A DNA stretch of 64,000 nt, from contig CACPCD010000001.1 of assembly GCA_902632315.1 (NCBI GenBank), forward strand, positions 124,001 through 188,000, in the 5' to 3' direction. The notes under the pieces were generated by a model, which saw nothing but the letters and a program-made list of their open reading frames with translations, did not search any database and was not told the DNA's origin. This document shows positions 4,702 through 37,332 of this stretch, one piece after another (position 1 is the stretch's first letter; the number at the start of each line of letters is the position of its first letter). The translations under genes were made by a program, and so were the position numbers. This stretch comes from an uncultured Pelagibacteraceae bacterium (GTDB taxonomy: Bacteria; Pseudomonadota; Alphaproteobacteria; Pelagibacterales; Pelagibacteraceae).

Positions 4702-5678
4702 AAAAAAGAGCATTAGTCTTAGGAGCAACAGGACAGGATGGATCATATATGGTCGATCTTTTGCTTAAAAAAAGATATGAAGTTCATGGGATATATCGTA
4801 AATCTTCAGTCGGAAATACAAAAAATATTGATCATTTAATAAATAATCCAAAAATTTTGAATAAAAGTTTTTTTTTACACAGAGGTGATTTATTAGACCC
4901 AGGCTCTTTAACAAGCATCATTGAAAATACTAATCCAAATGAAATTTATAATTTTGCAGATCAAGATCATGTAGGCTGGAGTTATGAAATTCCTTCATAT
5001 TCCTTTAGAGCTACAGCATTATCAGTAATTGACATATTTGAAGTTCTGAGAAAATTAAATAAAAAGATTAAATTTTTTCAACCAATATCATCAAATATAT
5101 TTGGAGAGACAAAAAAAATTAAACAAAATGAAAAAACTATTCCAGAGCCCAACAGTATATATGCTCTTGCTAAAACCACTACACTCTATGCATCTAGAAT
5201 GTATAACAAAGTTTACAATCTTCATATATGTGGAGCAATTTTTTTTAATCATGAGTCACCTAAAAGGAATAAAGATTATGTTTCTAAAAAAATAGTTCAG
5301 CATGCTTGTGAAATATATTTTAAAAAAAGAAAATTCATTTATTTAGGAAACATTAAGTCTAAAATTGATTGGGGATATGCAAAAGAATATGTCGATTATT
5401 CATGGAGAATAATGCAGCAAAAAAAACCTGATTTCTATGTTATTGGCTCTGGAAAAAATTATACTGTCGAATATTTCTTAAAAAAATGTTTTAGCTACCT
5501 TGGGTTAAATTATAGAAAATATTTAAAAATTGATAAGAAATTATTTAGACCATCAAAAACTAGAAACTTATTAGCAGATACATCTAAAGCAAAAAAAGAT
5601 TTAAACTTTAAGTTAAAAACAGACCTAGATGCTTTGATTAAAATAATGATGGATAACGAGTTGAAAAAATATAACTAA
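4698..5678 (+). CDS. GDP-mannose 4,6-dehydratase-like SDR
   Basis: LVLGATGQDGSYMVDLLLKKRYEVHGIYR, YALAK (YxxxK), FNHESPKRNKDYVSKKI. Confidence 0.87.
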   Translation: MKKRALVLGATGQDGSYMVDLLLKKRYEVHGIYRKSSVGNTKNIDHLINNPKILNKSFFLHRGDLLDPGSLTSIIENTNPNEIYNFADQDHVGWSYEIPSYSFRATALSVIDIFEVLRKLNKKIKFFQPISSNIFGETKKIKQNEKTIPEPNSIYALAKTTTLYASRMYNKVYNLHICGAIFFNHESPKRNKDYVSKKIVQHACEIYFKKRKFIYLGNIKSKIDWGYAKEYVDYSWRIMQQKKPDFYVIGSGKNYTVEYFLKKCFSYLGLNYRKYLKIDKKLFRPSKTRNLLADTSKAKKDLNFKLKTDLDALIKIMMDNELKKYN

Positions 5679-5679
5679 T

Positions 5680-6480
5680 CTAGTCAAAGTGTTTTTCTTT
5701 TAAAAAATAAGTATTTAAAGGAAAATTGTTATAAATTTTCTCAAATTTATTTTTTTTATTTGAGAAAGCATATTTTTCATATCTATATTTTTTTAAAATT
5801 TTAATAATTTTTTTAATATCTGAATCGGTTTCGATCAATAAAGCAGGCTGATCTTTTTTAATAATTTTTTCAAGACATTTAACAACTGATAGACCATTGT
5901 CGTTTACATCAATTTTAATTAAATCTATCCTATACTTAAGCTTTTTAATCTTATTAATTTTTAGTTTTTCTTTTACTATTTGAATATTTTTTTTAAATTT
6001 AAAATCCAATCCCAACTGTTTTATTAAGGTTAATTTATTGTAATATGTATAGGGTATAAGGTCTAAGTTAATATTAAAAAACTTATATCTTGGAAAATAG
6101 ATTTCCTTAATATCTTTTTTGTGCCCAATTGCATAGGGTTTTATTATTAGTTTATTATTTTTAATTTTTCTTAAAATTTTTATGTAAAAATTATTAGGTT
6201 CAAAACAAATAGCTTTATTAATGTTAAGGTTGTTTAAAAAAAATTTTGAGGCAATCCCATCACTTGCACCAACATCAATTATATTAATACTATCTTTAAA
6301 GTTTATAAACTTAACACCACTAGCATCTTCTTCAAAAATGTTTGTGTGTCTGACAAAATATCTTGCAAAAACATACAATAATGGGTGAGATCTAATTATT
6401 TTTTCAAAAAAATTTAGCAATCCAGAATTTGTAGAAGATTTACTCATAATAAATCCATTTGATTTTTTTTGCTTAGACAT
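5680..6480 (-). CDS. FkbM family methyltransferase
   Basis: NIIDVGASDGIASKFFL, ICFEPNNFY, DLIKIDVNDNGLSVVK. Confidence 0.75.
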   Translation of the reverse strand: MSKQKKSNGFIMSKSSTNSGLLNFFEKIIRSHPLLYVFARYFVRHTNIFEEDASGVKFINFKDSINIIDVGASDGIASKFFLNNLNINKAICFEPNNFYIKILRKIKNNKLIIKPYAIGHKKDIKEIYFPRYKFFNINLDLIPYTYYNKLTLIKQLGLDFKFKKNIQIVKEKLKINKIKKLKYRIDLIKIDVNDNGLSVVKCLEKIIKKDQPALLIETDSDIKKIIKILKKYRYEKYAFSNKKNKFEKIYNNFPLNTYFLKEKHFD

Positions 6481-30329: not shown

Positions 30330-30384
30330 TGGTGCCCCCGCACGGATTCGAACCGCGGACCTATTGATTACAAATCAATTGCTC
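30330..30384. repeat. attL-like direct repeat: 3' half of tRNA-Thr
   Basis: TGGTGCCCCCGCACGGATTCGAACCGCGGACCTATTGATTACAAATCAATTGCTC, identical 55 bp to 37257-37311. Confidence 0.95.
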
Positions 30385-30447
30385 GTGCAGTTCTGCTCGT
30401 TGGGATACAATACTAATTCAGCATCACAGAGTCAAAAGTAAATATCC

Positions 30448-30464
30448 GACAACACTATGACAAC
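30448..30464. promoter_or_regulatory. Candidate integrase arm-type sites near attL
   Basis: GACAACactatGACAAC, shares GACAACACTA with 37158-37167 near attR. Confidence 0.5.
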
Positions 30465-30479
30465 AACATAGGAGGATAT

Positions 30480-31460
30480 ATGGCTACAATTTACAAAAAT
30501 AAGGGTAAGTGGGGTGCTTGGATAAGACGTTCATTTCATAAACCAATTCACAAAAGTTTTATATCAAAACAAGATGCACAACGTTGGGTTAGAGAAACTG
30601 AACGCTTGATTGAAGTAGGTCAGTTTGTAGATTTGTCAGAAGCAAACAAGACTACACTTAAAGCATTACTTGAACGTTATGAGCGTGAAGTATCTGCAAA
30701 GAAGCGAACCACCGCAGATAAATATTTAATCAAAAATATTATGCGACACGAGATTGTTTCAAAGGTCCTCGCTCACATAACAACAACAGATGTTGCAAAG
30801 TTTCGTGATGAAAGGTTAAAGACTATTAGCGGCAGTTCAGTCAATCGTGAATTAAGTATATTGAGTGATTGTATCAAAAGAGCAATCAATGAGTGGGGGT
30901 GTTACATACGAGAGAACCCAGTCAAAGCTAACTTACGATGTAAGGAAAATAACAAACGAAATAGACGACTAGAAGCTGGGGAGTACGAGAAGCTTATGAG
31001 TTCTTGTAAAAGTAACAGAGCGTTTTGGTGCCCAGTAATTGACTTTGCAATACATACTGGAATGCGTAGAGGGGAGTTATTAAACATCACTTGGGATATG
31101 GTCCAATGGGATAAAAAGTTTATTAAATTACCCGCACATATTACCAAAACTAATAGGGACAGAAACGTACCGCTTCAACCTCACGCCATAGAAATATTAC
31201 AAAACTTACCTCGGTCCCTGGGCGGTAAAATATTTCCCATAGGCATAAAAAACTTTGAGCGTAGTTGGAGGGCAATCTGTAAGAGAGCATCTATAACTGG
31301 ATTAAGATTTCACGACTTAAAACGTGAGGCGGTGTCCAGGTTATTTGAGAAAGGTTTATCTGTATCAGAGGTGCAAACATTCGTAGGTAATTCGTTTGCA
31401 ACATTGTCAGTTTATACAGAACATAACTCAACAACACTTGCAGAAAAGTTAGCAAAATAG
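30480..31460 (+). CDS. Tyrosine recombinase/integrase
   Basis: HTGMRRGELLNITWDMV, RFHDLKREAVSRLFEKGLSVSEVQTFVGNSFATLSVYTEH; preceded by AGGAGG. Confidence 0.93.
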   Translation: MATIYKNKGKWGAWIRRSFHKPIHKSFISKQDAQRWVRETERLIEVGQFVDLSEANKTTLKALLERYEREVSAKKRTTADKYLIKNIMRHEIVSKVLAHITTTDVAKFRDERLKTISGSSVNRELSILSDCIKRAINEWGCYIRENPVKANLRCKENNKRNRRLEAGEYEKLMSSCKSNRAFWCPVIDFAIHTGMRRGELLNITWDMVQWDKKFIKLPAHITKTNRDRNVPLQPHAIEILQNLPRSLGGKIFPIGIKNFERSWRAICKRASITGLRFHDLKREAVSRLFEKGLSVSEVQTFVGNSFATLSVYTEHNSTTLAEKLAK

Positions 31461-31500
31461 ACTCATAATTGGTGCCTAAAACTTGACCCAATTGTTCACT

Positions 31501-31533
31501 TGACCTTGTATTAGCGTATGTTAAACAAGGTCA
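31501..31533. terminator. Inverted repeat downstream of integrase
   Basis: TGACCTTGT (31501-31509) and ACAAGGTCA (31525-31533), 9-bp perfect arms; no strong T-run. Confidence 0.35.
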
Positions 31534-31807
31534 TTCGAGCAAAGAAAGAGTTTTATCGATTGTCGCAGAAAGTTATTACAATCGTGTGTAAATGAAGTCA
31601 CAGAAGTTGCTCATCTAATCTTCACAAACTGAAACGAGAAAATTCAGATTGGATTATAAAAATGATATTAGATGACAAATTATTTGTGAGAGATAACTCG
31701 AACATCATAATTGCAGATTTTACTATGTACTCACTGGCCAGTGTGTATTTCATCTTAAAGTATCAAAGCTTCATCATATCATCTTAATCCTGGTAGATGA
31801 ATTTCTC

Positions 31808-31843
31808 GTTGCGTGTGGGAGTAACCACCTCCCACCGCACAAC
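31808..31843 (+). promoter_or_regulatory. Hairpin immediately upstream of the ribosome-binding site of ORF 31858
   Basis: GTTG...TGGGAG-taaccac-CTCCCA...CAAC followed by acataGGAGGacatATG. Confidence 0.45.
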
Positions 31844-31857
31844 ACATAGGAGGACAT

Positions 31858-32289
31858 ATGTCCAACGAGAAAAGAGGATTAGGCGATAACTCTATAAACA
31901 CGTCTGATTATATTGGTGGAGTCGAATACTTGCACTCTGCTTTAGATGAAGCAGTTAAGCTAATCGTAAGGTTATCAAAACGAAATGCAAAGACTGATAA
32001 ACTTCTAAACAACAGCATCTATGCAAAAAATAATTTGCAGCGGGGTGTACATCTAAACAAAGCTATTGAAGTTCAGAGTAAGAATAAATCTGAATTAGAA
32101 AGTTTTGATAAGATATTAACTGCAATCAATAACAGACAAGACATACATACTGGATTGAACAAATCTCATAAGCTAGAAATGTGCAGTCAGTCGGGTAACT
32201 TTGGTAACTATATTGCAAACAATACTGGTGGACCATTCGATAAAGATGTAGTCGATGTTGCATTCAGAGAGGCGGATAAAGATGAGTAA
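31858..32289 (+). CDS. Hypothetical element protein
   Basis: 143-aa ORF with strong AGGAGG; stop overlaps next start. Confidence 0.7.
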   Translation: MSNEKRGLGDNSINTSDYIGGVEYLHSALDEAVKLIVRLSKRNAKTDKLLNNSIYAKNNLQRGVHLNKAIEVQSKNKSELESFDKILTAINNRQDIHTGLNKSHKLEMCSQSGNFGNYIANNTGGPFDKDVVDVAFREADKDE

Positions 32290-32785
32290 TAACTACAAAG
32301 GTTATCTGCCTGGAATGAATCCAAATCGTACACGTAAAATTTTTCAAGATGATGACGATAGGTATTATGCTTATGAAAGTTCTACTGGACGATTTGTAAA
32401 CAATTTAGGTCAAGAAGTTAAAACTGCAAAAGAGGCAATCGCATTCAACGATAAACTTGATGCAGAATATAAACAGATGTTCCCACCGCAAAAGTCGGTG
32501 GGTGCAAAACCATTTAGAGCTAAACCTCAAAGAATGACACCAACAAAAAGTTTTCAGCAAATTAAAAAATCTGAAAAACAGTTGGGCAATGTAAATACTT
32601 TGGGTGCTGGAGTGTTTTACGATTTTAATAGTCCAGTTGATAAGTTGTTAGCACAACGTAAGGAAATGGAAAAATCAAGAGCTGAAAGTATTGAAGCTGA
32701 AAAAAGATTTAGACAATCCATGCGTACCACTGATGAGGATAAGGGTAAAGGTTTACCTGGAATATTGGGGGTAGATAATGCGTAG
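32282..32785 (+). CDS. Hypothetical element protein (start trimmed to MSNNYKGYLPGMNPN)
   Basis: Translationally overlaps neighbouring ORFs. Confidence 0.7.
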   Translation: MSNNYKGYLPGMNPNRTRKIFQDDDDRYYAYESSTGRFVNNLGQEVKTAKEAIAFNDKLDAEYKQMFPPQKSVGAKPFRAKPQRMTPTKSFQQIKKSEKQLGNVNTLGAGVFYDFNSPVDKLLAQRKEMEKSRAESIEAEKRFRQSMRTTDEDKGKGLPGILGVDNA

Positions 32786-33125
32786 AAAAAAGCTAGTCAA
32801 TCCTGGTGTTAAATATCCAAAATCAAAACTTGTAAGAGAAGCATTAATACCGAAACGTAAACGTGAGCATACGTATACTACGTGTGCTTGTGGCAATGTT
32901 GATTACAAGACACTTGTTTATTTAGCAAAAAACTCAATCAGAGTAATTGATAACTTGGCAAAGACGTTAGCATCAATGGAAGAAAAATTTGATGAAACGA
33001 AAAAAACAGTTGAGTACATCACTAACTCTGCATCAAAGCAGTTAGATACTAAAGATGCACAAATTAATTTCCTAAAAGACAAACTAGAAGAAATGGGGGT
33101 AAGAACAAATGAAACGGAACAATAA
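32778..33125 (+). CDS. Hypothetical coiled-coil element protein
   Basis: 115 aa; TTCACGNVDYKTL then heptad-rich LASMEEKFDETKKTVEYITNSASKQLDTKDAQINFLKDKLEEM. Confidence 0.65.
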   Translation: MRRKKLVNPGVKYPKSKLVREALIPKRKREHTYTTCACGNVDYKTLVYLAKNSIRVIDNLAKTLASMEEKFDETKKTVEYITNSASKQLDTKDAQINFLKDKLEEMGVRTNETEQ

Positions 33126-33516
33126 CATCGATAAGGAAATTTACTCTGCACCAACACTTAAAGAAGCATTGAAGATAGCAATGTCAGAAACACCATTAGA
33201 AGAATTTGAAATGGACGTAATACAAACGCTATCACAATACGATGACTGGAAAAGAGATAACCCAGGTAAGTCGTATGATGATTTCTTAAAAGAAATGGGA
33301 CTCGACAGAGTAAAACTAAATGCTGGAGGATTAAGTAGGGAAGCATTAATTGATATGCTGAAAAACGAATATCCGAAAGAATATGCAAGACTCAAAAAGG
33401 GAAACTTATCTCAATCTGAATTAAAAAAGTTATTAGATAATTTAGACAAAGACGGAGTACCATTTAATACAGGTGGTCTTGTAAGTAACTACAAAAAGAA
33501 TGCGAGGAAGCCGTGA
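33109..33516 (+). CDS. Hypothetical element protein with two GGL motifs
   Basis: LNAGGLSREALIDML and FNTGGLVSNYKK; overlaps next GTG start. Confidence 0.65.
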   Translation: MKRNNNIDKEIYSAPTLKEALKIAMSETPLEEFEMDVIQTLSQYDDWKRDNPGKSYDDFLKEMGLDRVKLNAGGLSREALIDMLKNEYPKEYARLKKGNLSQSELKKLLDNLDKDGVPFNTGGLVSNYKKNARKP

Positions 33517-35588
33517 GTTTAAATCCTATCGCAAATCTTCTAAAGACTGATGCAATATTGTTTTGGAGTACGTATGGTACAAAAGCAGTTGCAGAAAGTT
33601 GGACTCAAAGACTAAACAAACAAATAAAATCTGTTGAACAAGTCAAAGAGTATACAAATATAAATATAGCAACGGGGCGAGAAAGTTTAATTGTAGATGT
33701 AGACTTGGATTGCCCTGAAGCAAATCTGTTAGCAGATTATTTTTTACCAAAAACTGAATTAGAGTTTGGACGTGAAAGTACACCTAGGGCACATAGATTG
33801 TTTAAGGTTATAGACCTACATTTAAAGCATACTAGAACGTATTGTAGCTTCGCAGACGCTAAAAAATCAATGCTGGTGGAGGTTAGAGCTAACAAACACT
33901 ATACGATGTGCTGGGGACAATATGAGAACCAGGAAAAAGTAGTTTGGTCCAATAGTGGATTACCTACTGAAATTTCTTGGGAAGCATTAAACAAAGCAGT
34001 AGCATTGTTAGGTGTAGCTTGTGTGATACTTCGTAAATATTCTAAACCAGGTACACACGACCAATACTTACGACTTGTTATAAATAGTTTGTGGCAGCAT
34101 AAGTTGGAACAATCTGATTGTGAGAAAATTATAAAAGCAGTTCTTGCAAATTCTAAATGTGAAAATTGTAACGATAGTAAGTTAGCAAAAATAAAATCTG
34201 TATATGCAAAGGATAGGACTGAACAAATACAAGGTCTACCTAGTCTTGCAACAGAGTTTAACTGGAGTGAAGATGAGGTCAAAGACTTCAAAAAACTGTT
34301 ATTCAAAATAACTGGTAGAGATGTTGTTCCAGAGTTTACTCACGAGTTTGTAAATAGAATTGCTTATATGATGAAGCAAAAGAAATATTACGACTTGGAA
34401 GATAAAGAAATGTACGATGCAGAAGCTATCGATGTTAAGTATGCAAAATACTTTCCAAACTATACACCGCTAAAGTGGTGGAAGATGCACAGAGATAGCA
34501 AAGTATGTGTAGATTTTGCTTATAAACCAAACGACAAAAATAGATTTGTACACGTTAATAAAAAGCTAATGATTAACGTATATGAACCTAATCTAATAAC
34601 ACCCGATAAAAGCGTAGATACAGATGTGTATTTTGATTTGTTAAAATGTGTAATACCTCACGATGCAGAGCGTAACCATTTTTTAGATTGGATAGCATAT
34701 CAATATCAAAATCCTGGTAAGAAGATTAGACACGCTCTAATCATGCAGTCCGATGAATTTCAATTAGGTAAGGGAAGTTTATTTGACGTGCATAGAGATA
34801 TACTTGGTTATAATAACTCCAGGAAGATTGAATTAGAAGAAGCACTAGACAAAGGCAAGGGCTATCTAATCAATGCGCAAACTGTGTTAATAGATGAAGC
34901 TAAATCTAGCGGCAGTTGGAGTGAGAAAGCAAAACTAATCAATACACTTAAAACAATTATTAGTGAGGGTACAATTGGTATACGTCAGCTATACAAAGAA
35001 TATGCTGAACAAGATACTTGCACTAACTATTGGATTAATACTAACTACAAAGATGCGTTTCCGCTTCCATATAACGAGGTAAGATACTGGGTATATTTTA
35101 GTCCTGGTAAACGAAACCAAAACTTGCTGGATAGGTACCACCTACATAGAGAAAAATATAATCTTGCTAGTGGTGTTTATGCAGAATTATTAGACAGAGA
35201 TATTAGTAAGTTCAAACCGCTGGGTGTTGCACCGCATACTCAATACAGAGATGAAATGAGTAAGTTAGCAGACAGACCTTTGAATGATTTAGTCAAAGAG
35301 TTGTTTGAGCAAGGCGTATTTCCGTTTGATAGGGATATGGTTACAACAATCGAATTGTTTGATTATTTGAAAGCAGAGAAGCGAGTAAAAATAACTAGAG
35401 AACGTGAGATTGCAAATGCACTAGAGTTAATTGGAGGCCGTAAAAAACCTGGGTGTCCAGTTGAACAAGTAGGGCAGAAAGTAACTATTTGGGTAATTAG
35501 AGATTGGGAAAAATACAAAAATCATACTGCCGCAGAATTAGGCAGAGTGTATGTCCCGTTTTATTCAGATAGTCGAAATAAGAAATAG
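33513..35588 (+). CDS. PrimPol-like primase fused to DUF5906/SF3-like helicase domain (GTG start)
   Basis: N-terminal NIATGRESLIVDVDLDCPEA / FGRESTPRAHRLFKV / VEVRANKHYTMCWG; C-terminal HALIMQSDEFQLGKGSLFDVH, QTVLIDEAKSSG (Walker B-like), YWINTNYKDAFPL. Confidence 0.8.
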   Translation: MSLNPIANLLKTDAILFWSTYGTKAVAESWTQRLNKQIKSVEQVKEYTNINIATGRESLIVDVDLDCPEANLLADYFLPKTELEFGRESTPRAHRLFKVIDLHLKHTRTYCSFADAKKSMLVEVRANKHYTMCWGQYENQEKVVWSNSGLPTEISWEALNKAVALLGVACVILRKYSKPGTHDQYLRLVINSLWQHKLEQSDCEKIIKAVLANSKCENCNDSKLAKIKSVYAKDRTEQIQGLPSLATEFNWSEDEVKDFKKLLFKITGRDVVPEFTHEFVNRIAYMMKQKKYYDLEDKEMYDAEAIDVKYAKYFPNYTPLKWWKMHRDSKVCVDFAYKPNDKNRFVHVNKKLMINVYEPNLITPDKSVDTDVYFDLLKCVIPHDAERNHFLDWIAYQYQNPGKKIRHALIMQSDEFQLGKGSLFDVHRDILGYNNSRKIELEEALDKGKGYLINAQTVLIDEAKSSGSWSEKAKLINTLKTIISEGTIGIRQLYKEYAEQDTCTNYWINTNYKDAFPLPYNEVRYWVYFSPGKRNQNLLDRYHLHREKYNLASGVYAELLDRDISKFKPLGVAPHTQYRDEMSKLADRPLNDLVKELFEQGVFPFDRDMVTTIELFDYLKAEKRVKITREREIANALELIGGRKKPGCPVEQVGQKVTIWVIRDWEKYKNHTAAELGRVYVPFYSDSRNKK

Positions 35589-35608
35589 AAATACAAGGAG
35601 GTAAAAAT

Positions 35609-35857
35609 ATGGGTAGAAGTACCAAAACAAAAACTAATTTGCGTACGCATATGGTACCAACAACACCCGACGAAGTGTTGAAACGTATTATGACAGATTT
35701 CTCTACCCACCTACGTAGGTCAAAAGAAACTTACGCAATCTCAAAAGAGATGCCAAAGTTTCCAATGGTCGACTATGAGGAATTGAGGAGGATTGTACAA
35801 TCAAACTTTCAATACCTTGGAGTACAGATACGTAAGTGGAAACGTGAAAACACATAA
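35609..35857 (+). CDS. Hypothetical small basic element protein
   Basis: 82-aa ORF preceded by AAGGAGG. Confidence 0.6.
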   Translation: MGRSTKTKTNLRTHMVPTTPDEVLKRIMTDFSTHLRRSKETYAISKEMPKFPMVDYEELRRIVQSNFQYLGVQIRKWKRENT

Positions 35858-35890
35858 TTAGAACGAAGCGATGCAAATTGTAGAGTTGTT

Positions 35891-37067
35891 AAATTTTCAG
35901 TCCAGCACCCTAGACAGAAATATTTTTTAACACTTTGCAATTTAGCTTCGTATGGTTCGAATTTGAAAAAGTTTTGAGCGTGGTTAAGAGGCGGGTATAT
36001 GCTGGTCCAGTAACCTTTTGTAACCCCAGGATAACTCCGAATGTACGAGAGTAAAGTTACGTTTTGTACGAGTATAAAGTTACCTTATGATACCTCCGAA
36101 AGTTAGCTTTTGTTAACTCGAAAAATAAAGATTAGTGAGTCATACCAACAATTTTTTTAAGCTAACAAATTGCAAACTTAACTAGGTAACTGCGGCATCT
36201 AATTATCGTACACGTGTACTTATTCGTACATAATCTTCGTACATTATTCAGTCCATATTCAAGGTTACCATTTAGCGTAACATTTACATTTATCCGTAAG
36301 TATTTATGCGTAAATATTTTCTACAAAAAGCTGGACAATGCTGGACTAAAAAAACAAAAGCGTAACTTTCAGAGGTTACGTTTTGTTACGTTTATTCCTG
36401 GTAAATTAATTTTTTAAATATGGACTTTTATGGACTTTGTGTACTGATGTGTACTTACTCAAACTTACTCTGATTGTTCCGTTCAGTTCCTTTGAAAGTA
36501 AGCAAATGTAAGCTTGTAAAAGTATACTAATGTATACTTGTAAATACCCTTATGTCACCCAGGGTTATCCACGTTTCGCGAGTCTTTATGCGGCTAAAAT
36601 AAAAAATACAGTCGGGGTACATGACTAGTATACCTCAATCAATTTAACTTGCTAACCTCGTAAACTTTTGGGGGAATTATTTGAGTAAAGCTTTCCTAGA
36701 ATTTGCGTGGTAACACCTAGTACACATAGGACCAGTATTGGTTTCAAATTCACTAAATACAATTGTCATTTCGCATTTAATTTTTTCGTGATTACCGCAA
36801 AATATACATCTATCAATTACTGGAGTTTCGTAGAGTGACTTATCGTTTTCTTTACCAGTTGCATTGTACCAGGCCATATCATTTAGAATATACCGATTGC
36901 TGACTCATACATAGCAAAATTTTTAAAATTTTCAGTCCAACGTACACTTGGGACTCCAAAAATGATTTCGCGCTCTACGAGTCTCTAAATCAAGCTATAT
37001 ACCCTAATGCAGTGGGACCCCTTTACAAAAAAAGGGTGGTGGGGGGTTGGACTTTGTTGGACTTTTG
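35891..37067. promoter_or_regulatory. Repeat-dense, mostly non-coding tail: candidate origin/partition/packaging region
   Basis: Tandem word pairs at 10-bp period, AAATTTTCAGTCCA x2, multiple TGGACT/AGTCCA, palindrome GTACACGTGTAC (36208-36219), DnaA-box-like TTATCCACG (36565-36573). Confidence 0.6.
36677..36877 (-). CDS. Small zinc-ribbon-like protein
   Basis: CIFC ... CTRC paired CxxC motifs; lies in an interruption of the repeat-dense region. Confidence 0.5.
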   Translation of the reverse strand: MAWYNATGKENDKSLYETPVIDRCIFCGNHEKIKCEMTIVFSEFETNTGPMCTRCYHANSRKALLK

Positions 37068-37082
37068 AAAACGTCTTGGTAC

Positions 37083-37130
37083 CTCTATTGCTTGTCCGCG
37101 CGAGTCCGTAGGACGAGCGCAGTAGAGATT
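37083..37130 (+). terminator. Structured hairpin followed by T-run (terminator or structured RNA)
   Basis: CTCTATTGC (37083-37091) pairs with GCAGTAGAG (37119-37127); inner GCGC-GA-GTCC-GTA-GGAC-GA-GCGC hairpin; then ATTTTTTG. Confidence 0.55.
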
Positions 37131-37146
37131 TTTTGACTCTTGTTTT

Positions 37147-37176
37147 GACAACAATCTGACAACACTAATTGTTGTC
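37147..37176. promoter_or_regulatory. Candidate integrase arm-type sites near attR
   Basis: GACAACaatctGACAACACTAATTGTTGTC: two direct (11-bp period) plus one inverted copy. Confidence 0.5.
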
Positions 37177-37256
37177 AGTAGACTCCGTATAGGATAAACT
37201 GGGATTTAGAAAGTAGAAATATAAACTAGTGTTTACGAAACTTTTTACTTGGTGTG

Positions 37257-37332
37257 TGGTGCCCCCGCACGGATTCGAACCGCGGACCTATTGATTACAA
37301 ATCAATTGCTCTACCAGCTGAGCTACAAGGGC
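37257..37332 (-). tRNA. tRNA-Thr (TGT)
   Basis: GCCCTTGTAGCTCAGCTGGTAGAGCAATTGATTTGTAATCAATAGGTCCGCGGTTCGAATCCGTGCGGGGGCACCA. Confidence 0.96.

Follow-up and report, generated by a model that had tools for sequence, protein, structure and literature searches.

A 64-kb stretch of a Pelagibacteraceae (SAR11) genome, here called the window, carries an array in which short words are doubled at a distance of exactly 10 bp, with a different word in each pair. Binding sites are normally recognised through the recurrence of the same word. The locus therefore raises the question of what keeps two neighbouring copies alike while the word itself is replaced, and of what such a region does for the DNA that carries it.

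Each pair consisted of two words of about 6 bp at a 10-bp offset; the spacer between them was A/T-rich (TTTT, AAAT, TAAT and similar). The main array spanned 36010-36540, in non-coding DNA, and started about 150 bp downstream of an 82-aa ORF, which comes after the gene of a primase-helicase. Direct reading gave GTAACC-tttt-GTAACC at 36010-36025 (homologous site A). Units at 36056, 36079 and 36102 were spaced by exactly 23 bp; they comprised a weak pair, GTTACG-tttt-GTACGA (36056-36071), the pair GTTACC-ttat-GATACC (36079-36095), and GTTAGC-tttt-GTTAAC (36102-36117), which is homologous site B and has a single mismatch, as previously described. The same 23-bp period appeared in the lag-23 matches TGTACGAG, TAAAGTTAC and AAAGTTA. 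Further pairs were GCTGGAC-aat-GCTGGAC (36330-36346), GTTACGTTT-t-GTTACGTTT (36375-36393), TATGGACTTT twice, a 10-bp duplication in full (36419-36438), TGTGTACT-ga-TGTGTACT (36438-36455), ACTTACTC-aa-ACTTACTC (36453-36470), GTAAGC-aaat-GTAAGC (36498-36513) and GTATACT-aat-GTATACT (36522-36538). An outlying pair, GTTGGACTTT twice, was set apart from the main array at 37046-37065.

All 11 pairs of the preliminary description were recovered at their positions, and its statement that this is no iteron array of one repeated word held, the words differing between pairs. The words were nevertheless related. Most fitted an xTxxxS-type class, and GTTAC, GTAAC, TGTAC and TGGAC ranked among the 5-mers with the strongest over-representation when the regions described below were pooled. 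The earlier proposal that the words reflect several related recognition sequences is thus supported by the shared class and is probably true in part. GC content was 0.27-0.36 between the pair groups and no different in the flanks. Inverse-complement third copies (AGTATAC, AGTACAC, GCTAAC, GTCCAG) were noticed in the window; by eye they were inconsistent in L028 and other relatives, several of the words are palindromic, and the feature was rejected. An RNA hairpin formed by the pairs was ruled out, because direct repeats cannot pair.

The excess at this offset was both sharp and local, as had been proposed, when set against dinucleotide shuffles, other lags and the rest of the window. Between 35880 and 37258, exact lag-10 runs of at least 5, 6 and 7 nt numbered 13, 9 and 7, against 1.7, 0.51 and 0.14 expected from the shuffles, whose maxima were 6, 3 and 1. 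At the other lags from 4 to 31, counts in this interval were near expectation, with a weak excess at 23-24 as the sole exception. In 2000 simulations each, Markov models of orders 1, 2 and 3 for 35858-36676 never produced the observed lag-10 count. Elsewhere in the window, the densest stretch had 4 lag-10 runs of at least 6 nt, compared with 8 in the array.

The array sits inside an integrative element of about 6.9 kb at tRNA-Thr (30330-37311). Its left attachment repeat (30330-30384) duplicates the 3'-terminal 55 bp of tRNA-Thr, with a partial tRNA match at 30341-30397, and is identical to the right attachment repeat (37257-37311), which is formed by the 3' 55 bp of tRNA-Thr(TGT) on the minus strand (37257-37332). 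Only tRNA was returned by Rfam at relevant scores. The plus strand encodes a tyrosine integrase of 326 aa (30480-31460; PF00589, E = 3.5e-20; phrog_1 integrase, 3.4e-53), four small genes of unassigned function (143, 176, 115 and 135 aa; 31858-33516), a 691-aa primase-helicase (33513-35588) and the 82-aa ORF (35609-35857), which had a homologue in L001 only among the relatives introduced below. A 66-aa CxxC protein on the minus strand (36677-36877) had homologues in L002, L028 and L033. The family of the 135-aa protein (33109-33516) was present in all 10 related elements and was, besides primase and integrase, the only gene common to all compared elements; it gave no Pfam or PHROG match of weight.

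The 691-aa protein, of the AEP-primase/SF3-helicase type, combines a Prim-Pol-like N-terminus, a DUF5906 core and a predicted C-terminal winged helix (DUF5906, 2.3e-8; Prim-Pol, 0.01; phrog_1156 DNA primase, 2.1e-24). A PDB sequence search with its profile gave no match, and no relative was confirmed in IMG/VR. The winged helix was predicted by AlphaFold at about residues 605-685 with low confidence overall (mean pLDDT 44), and the model of the whole protein was not good enough to search for related folds. With Pfam and PHROGs, none of the element's eight proteins matched a capsid, tail or terminase family. Having an integrase, direct attachment repeats at a tRNA and its own replication gene, and no capsid, tail or terminase genes, the element appears, from its gene content, to resemble a phage satellite.

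Six homologous elements (L001-L006), with primases 56-74% identical, and a more distant SAR11 element from another genome (L028, genome G343) were compared. In eight pooled regions, lag-10 runs of at least 7 nt numbered 20, against 0.43 in shuffles, and the next highest lag was 23 with a count of 7. Clear pairs were seen in L002, L003, L006 and L028, one or two in L001, and almost none in L004 and L005; runs of at least 5 nt per region varied strongly in this pooled set, with 10 in the window and 0-1 in L004 and L005. The units of L003 were spaced by 23 and 22 bp. In L032 and L033, which have homologous primases, the array was almost absent, so that it is not essential for every such primase. 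L028 was inserted at tRNA-Leu; the tRNA-Thr locus of G343 seems to be empty and adjoins the same methyltransferase-EF-Tu neighbourhood as the window.

Two positions, sites A and B, could be aligned between elements, and at both the words varied between elements and matched within them. Site A read GTAACC/GTAACC, GTCACC/ATCACC, GTTACC/CTTACC and GTACGC/GTACGC by element, and site B read GTTAGC/GTTAAC, GTTACG/GTTACG, GTTGGC/GTTGGC and ATTACG/GTTACG. Persistence of the 10-bp pairing under changing words in homologues was the deciding test set in the preliminary description, and the array passed it. Footprints of transposon excision were rejected as a source of the pairs, because the same position carries different words in related elements.

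Covariation of the two copies was then quantified. Sixty class-matched lag-10 pairs shared 4.48 of 6 bases, compared with 2.87 +/- 0.14 after permutation (z = 11.5), in a set whose words were picked by degenerate class only, the class having been chosen after the words were seen. The same permutation gave z of about 3 at lags 9 and 23, and about 0 to 2 at the rest. With sites taken from an iterated weight matrix, for which identity was not required, columns 3-6 covaried (p 0.001-0.02). Matched double changes at homologous sites numbered 62 against 14.6 expected (p of about 0.0002), counted over four hand-assembled site sets, two from SAR11 and two from Streptococcus suis, in which related sequences are not independent. 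Full 9-11-bp matches occurred in 21 of 50 pairs, against about 3 expected if the word alone matched, an excess inflated by the T-rich spacers.

This last excess supports the earlier idea of a local copying of about 10 bp, which is probably also true in part. In its pure form, the pairs would have no binding function and replication slippage would yield 10-bp duplications that persist for a time. The long matches are what it predicts, but enrichment was at offset 10 only, and ordinary slippage would not choose one helical turn. Words of one class, units phased at 23 bp, and pairing that persists at homologous positions while the words change likewise argue against slippage alone, which we regard as disfavoured and very improbable.

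Arrays of this kind, again confined to offset 10, also occurred outside SAR11, in S. suis satellite phages and in phage contigs of Firmicutes and Bacteroidota-like type, so the rule is not special to this element. The contigs were gathered by exact IMG/VR scans for single pair words, and they held further lag-10 pairs with other words nearby; in L046, about 200 bp contained pairs of five different words. Across 2.3 Mb of DNA, clusters of at least three different-word pairs within 250 bp numbered 14 at lag 10 and 0 or 1 at each other lag from 6 to 23; the 14 include the window twice (as itself and as L007) and several near-identical S. suis loci, and they measure offset specificity rather than abundance, because the loci were selected via the lag-10 pattern. 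Around the 32 matches of a lag-11 control pattern, only 8 additional lag-10 pairs were found. The word GTTACCTTTTGTTACC showed no lag-10 preference, and thus not every such word marks an array. Matches of GTTGGACTTTGTTGGACT in IMG/VR lay within a coding ORF in the contigs read and were taken as chance. L140 held two separate different-word lag-10 clusters (5400-5650 and 6060-6300). Two related phage contigs carried classical 10-bp iterons instead, with five to six copies of GTTACG only, a word similar to those of the pairs (L048, 11876-11940; L054, 1790-1850); a small Cys-rich (zinc-ribbon-like) gene follows immediately.

L109-type loci matched the Streptococcus satellite phages of S. suis. 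The first unit read GTCCGC/GTCCGC, GTCAAC/GTCAAC, GTCAGT/GTCAGT or GTTAGG/GTTAGG, depending on the satellite. Identity within pairs was not strict, since mismatched pairs occurred in L028 and in several S. suis units. No lag-10 cluster was found in three full-length Streptococcus prophages, too few to contrast satellites with phages. Words thus change while the doubling is kept, both in relatives and in unrelated phage satellites, and the doubling itself, not the word, appears to be what is maintained.

The S. suis arrays are flanked by repressor and integrase genes, and the replication genes are kilobases away. This placement would suit operators, at which one or more regulators bind direct repeats one turn apart and control the integrase or late genes. 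The 10-bp direct-repeat geometry is typical of lambda CII-like activators, and proteins that match DUF1492 or a sigma-70 region 4-like domain are encoded near the arrays of L175 and L217. A single regulator, however, would need no words that are matched and yet different. No HTH gene was common to all array-bearing SAR11 elements compared, and no plus-strand gene lies immediately downstream of the main array. We consider operators unlikely, though a serious alternative.

That S. suis satellites bear different words at the same position is also consistent with a packaging signal. Such a signal might comprise several addresses, read by the terminases of different helper phages, and this would account for the variety of words in a single satellite. 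Helper-like cos sites are known in satellites (PMC6092414; PMC13376191). Putative terminase subunit genes are found no more than about 1 kb from the arrays of L046, L047 and L051, but the products of these genes gave weak HTH matches only in Pfam. No helper is known for the element, and two isolated pelagiphages, HTVC010P and HTVC019P, which were tried and rejected as sources of the words, have no comparable array. An equally good candidate is, moreover, a separate conserved GGATCC/poly-G block close to the attachment site. Blocks of AGGATCCCT with a poly-G/GGGGTG tract were seen near the attachment side in several SAR11 elements with different primases, at 36990-37050 in the window, 11100-11260 in L002, 10640-10760 in L004, 10765-10840 in L006 and 8440-8680 in L028 (reverse complement), and they are candidate packaging sites. 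A packaging role for the array is in our view distinctly unlikely.

Arm-type sites for the integrase or an excisionase were also weighed. Tyrosine integrases bind paired arm repeats, and the attP arms of P4 consist of adjacent pairs. In the circular form, the array would flank the integrase gene on its attP side, with the 37046 pair about 200 bp from the core. The main array, however, is 0.7-1.25 kb from the core, and in S. suis the distance exceeds 1 kb, much farther than known arm regions extend. Nor would one integrase account for many words. Arm sites therefore have, to our judgement, the slightest chance of the explanations considered.

The reading that we favour, tentatively and at a probability of roughly 0.45, is a paired-half-site iteron array that is most likely the replication origin, or a cis-required region, of a small satellite-like integrative element. 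We observed the array, its restriction to one offset, the covariation of its copies, its place after the primase-helicase gene and its recurrence elsewhere; protein binding, origin function and the way in which copies are homogenised we infer. A dimeric or oligomeric DNA-binding protein would contact two half-sites of about 6 bp one helical turn apart, and the preference for a single offset suggests that the protein touches one face of the DNA. The first candidate for the binder would be the predicted C-terminal winged helix of the 691-aa primase-helicase. Geometry would be set by the A/T-rich spacer and the 23-bp unit, while recognition would be degenerate, roughly xTxxxS, so that many words work. 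The recognition-helix residues T628-E632, A634 and A636 were invariant in seven elements despite differing words, which suggests degenerate recognition rather than words that track shifts in protein specificity.

Mutation would be the main process that keeps the copies of a pair identical. The easiest route to a second half-site in phase may be a 10-bp tandem duplication, and slippage or conversion between the copies may later re-homogenise the pair; words would then drift across pairs and elements and stay equal within a pair. The S. suis units have TTTT as their spacer and a constant AGCTG after the second copy. Since these bases differ from the spacer, a simple recent 10-bp duplication is insufficient there, and later homogenisation or conversion would also be needed.

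As in iteron origins, the repeats are clustered, helically phased and adjoin a rep gene; what they share is only a degenerate class, not a single sequence common to all iterons. No clear AT-rich melting region stood out in the array region. The origin reading is weakened by the primase relatives with no array, by the other location of the array in S. suis satellites, and by the variable number of pairs. A more radical explanation is that the arrays belong to an undescribed, widespread class of cis-element in phages and satellites, in which selection acts on the equality of two words one helical turn apart and not on what they spell, and the site is read by sensing identity instead of a set base code. 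Realignment of the template between copies by a primase-polymerase, or strand slippage during melting, would be examples of such sensing. We hold this class to be quite improbable.

For an origin, a close parallel is the crr/ori of P4, which is likewise of satellite size, with a C-terminal winged helix on the primase-helicase and a repeat region directly downstream of its gene. Its crr contains 8-bp repeats that are often paired 9-11 bp apart, like the pairs here. P4, however, uses one word (GTTCACC) in both orientations at spacings of 9-11, whereas our element changes its word by pair, keeps to a spacing of 10 and has most of its words in one orientation. The alpha protein of P4 is a Toprim primase, while the primase here is AEP-like by its AEP/DUF5906 matches; neither an alpha-type Toprim primase nor GTTCACC type I repeats were found in the element. 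The lambda CII operators, TTGC-N6-TTGC, are a direct repeat at exactly one helical turn and share this with the array; they differ in their fixed word, CII being a promoter-linked activator with one or few sites. The S. suis satellites (Javan560, 574 and 594 type) share lag-10 arrays, changing words and covarying copies, but have a unit of about 27 bp framed by A6, TTTT and AGCTG, and unrelated replication genes.

The origin of PICIs lies immediately 3' of the rep gene and contains two iteron sets (PMC6092414). PICIs and SaPIs thus resemble the element in having a repeat region directly 3' of rep, but they use one iteron sequence per element, and no clear AT-rich core between two sets was seen in the element. 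An AlpA-like or stl-like gene was not found in it with Pfam and PHROGs, so it was not classed as a PICI. Plasmid pRN1 has an essential region 3' of the rep gene and a Rep protein with AEP, SF3 and winged-helix domains (PMC4234260). Replicons of this type are similar in the outline of the protein architecture and in the region 3' of rep, but carry a long stem-loop instead of iterons.

A description of the rule was not found in the open-licence literature, in a limited search that is no proof of novelty, nor did a similarly limited search find a paper on how replication is controlled in mobile elements of SAR11. At least two satellite lineages, unrelated to each other, let the word vary and keep the one-turn doubling alone, and motif finders that look for recurring words may overlook sites of this kind. 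Should the array prove to be an origin, it would show where mobile elements of SAR11 control their replication, and it would provide a simple system in which to test how degenerate binding acts together with the concerted evolution of short repeats. The comparable S. suis satellites could open the question to tests in a culturable host group.

A strong G+C-rich hairpin of the CGAGTCC...GGACGAG type was observed at 37083-37127 of the window. Such hairpins also occurred in three distant SAR11 elements, at about 8693-8720 in L028 (reverse complement), 9193-9230 in L032 (reverse complement) and 8490-8520 in L033, with z of -2.9 to -5.9 across the four elements. They lie 130-350 bp from the tRNA attachment site. 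The hairpin sequence varies, the GGACGAG/GAGTCC frame recurs, and the hairpin is a candidate packaging, recombination or RNA element.
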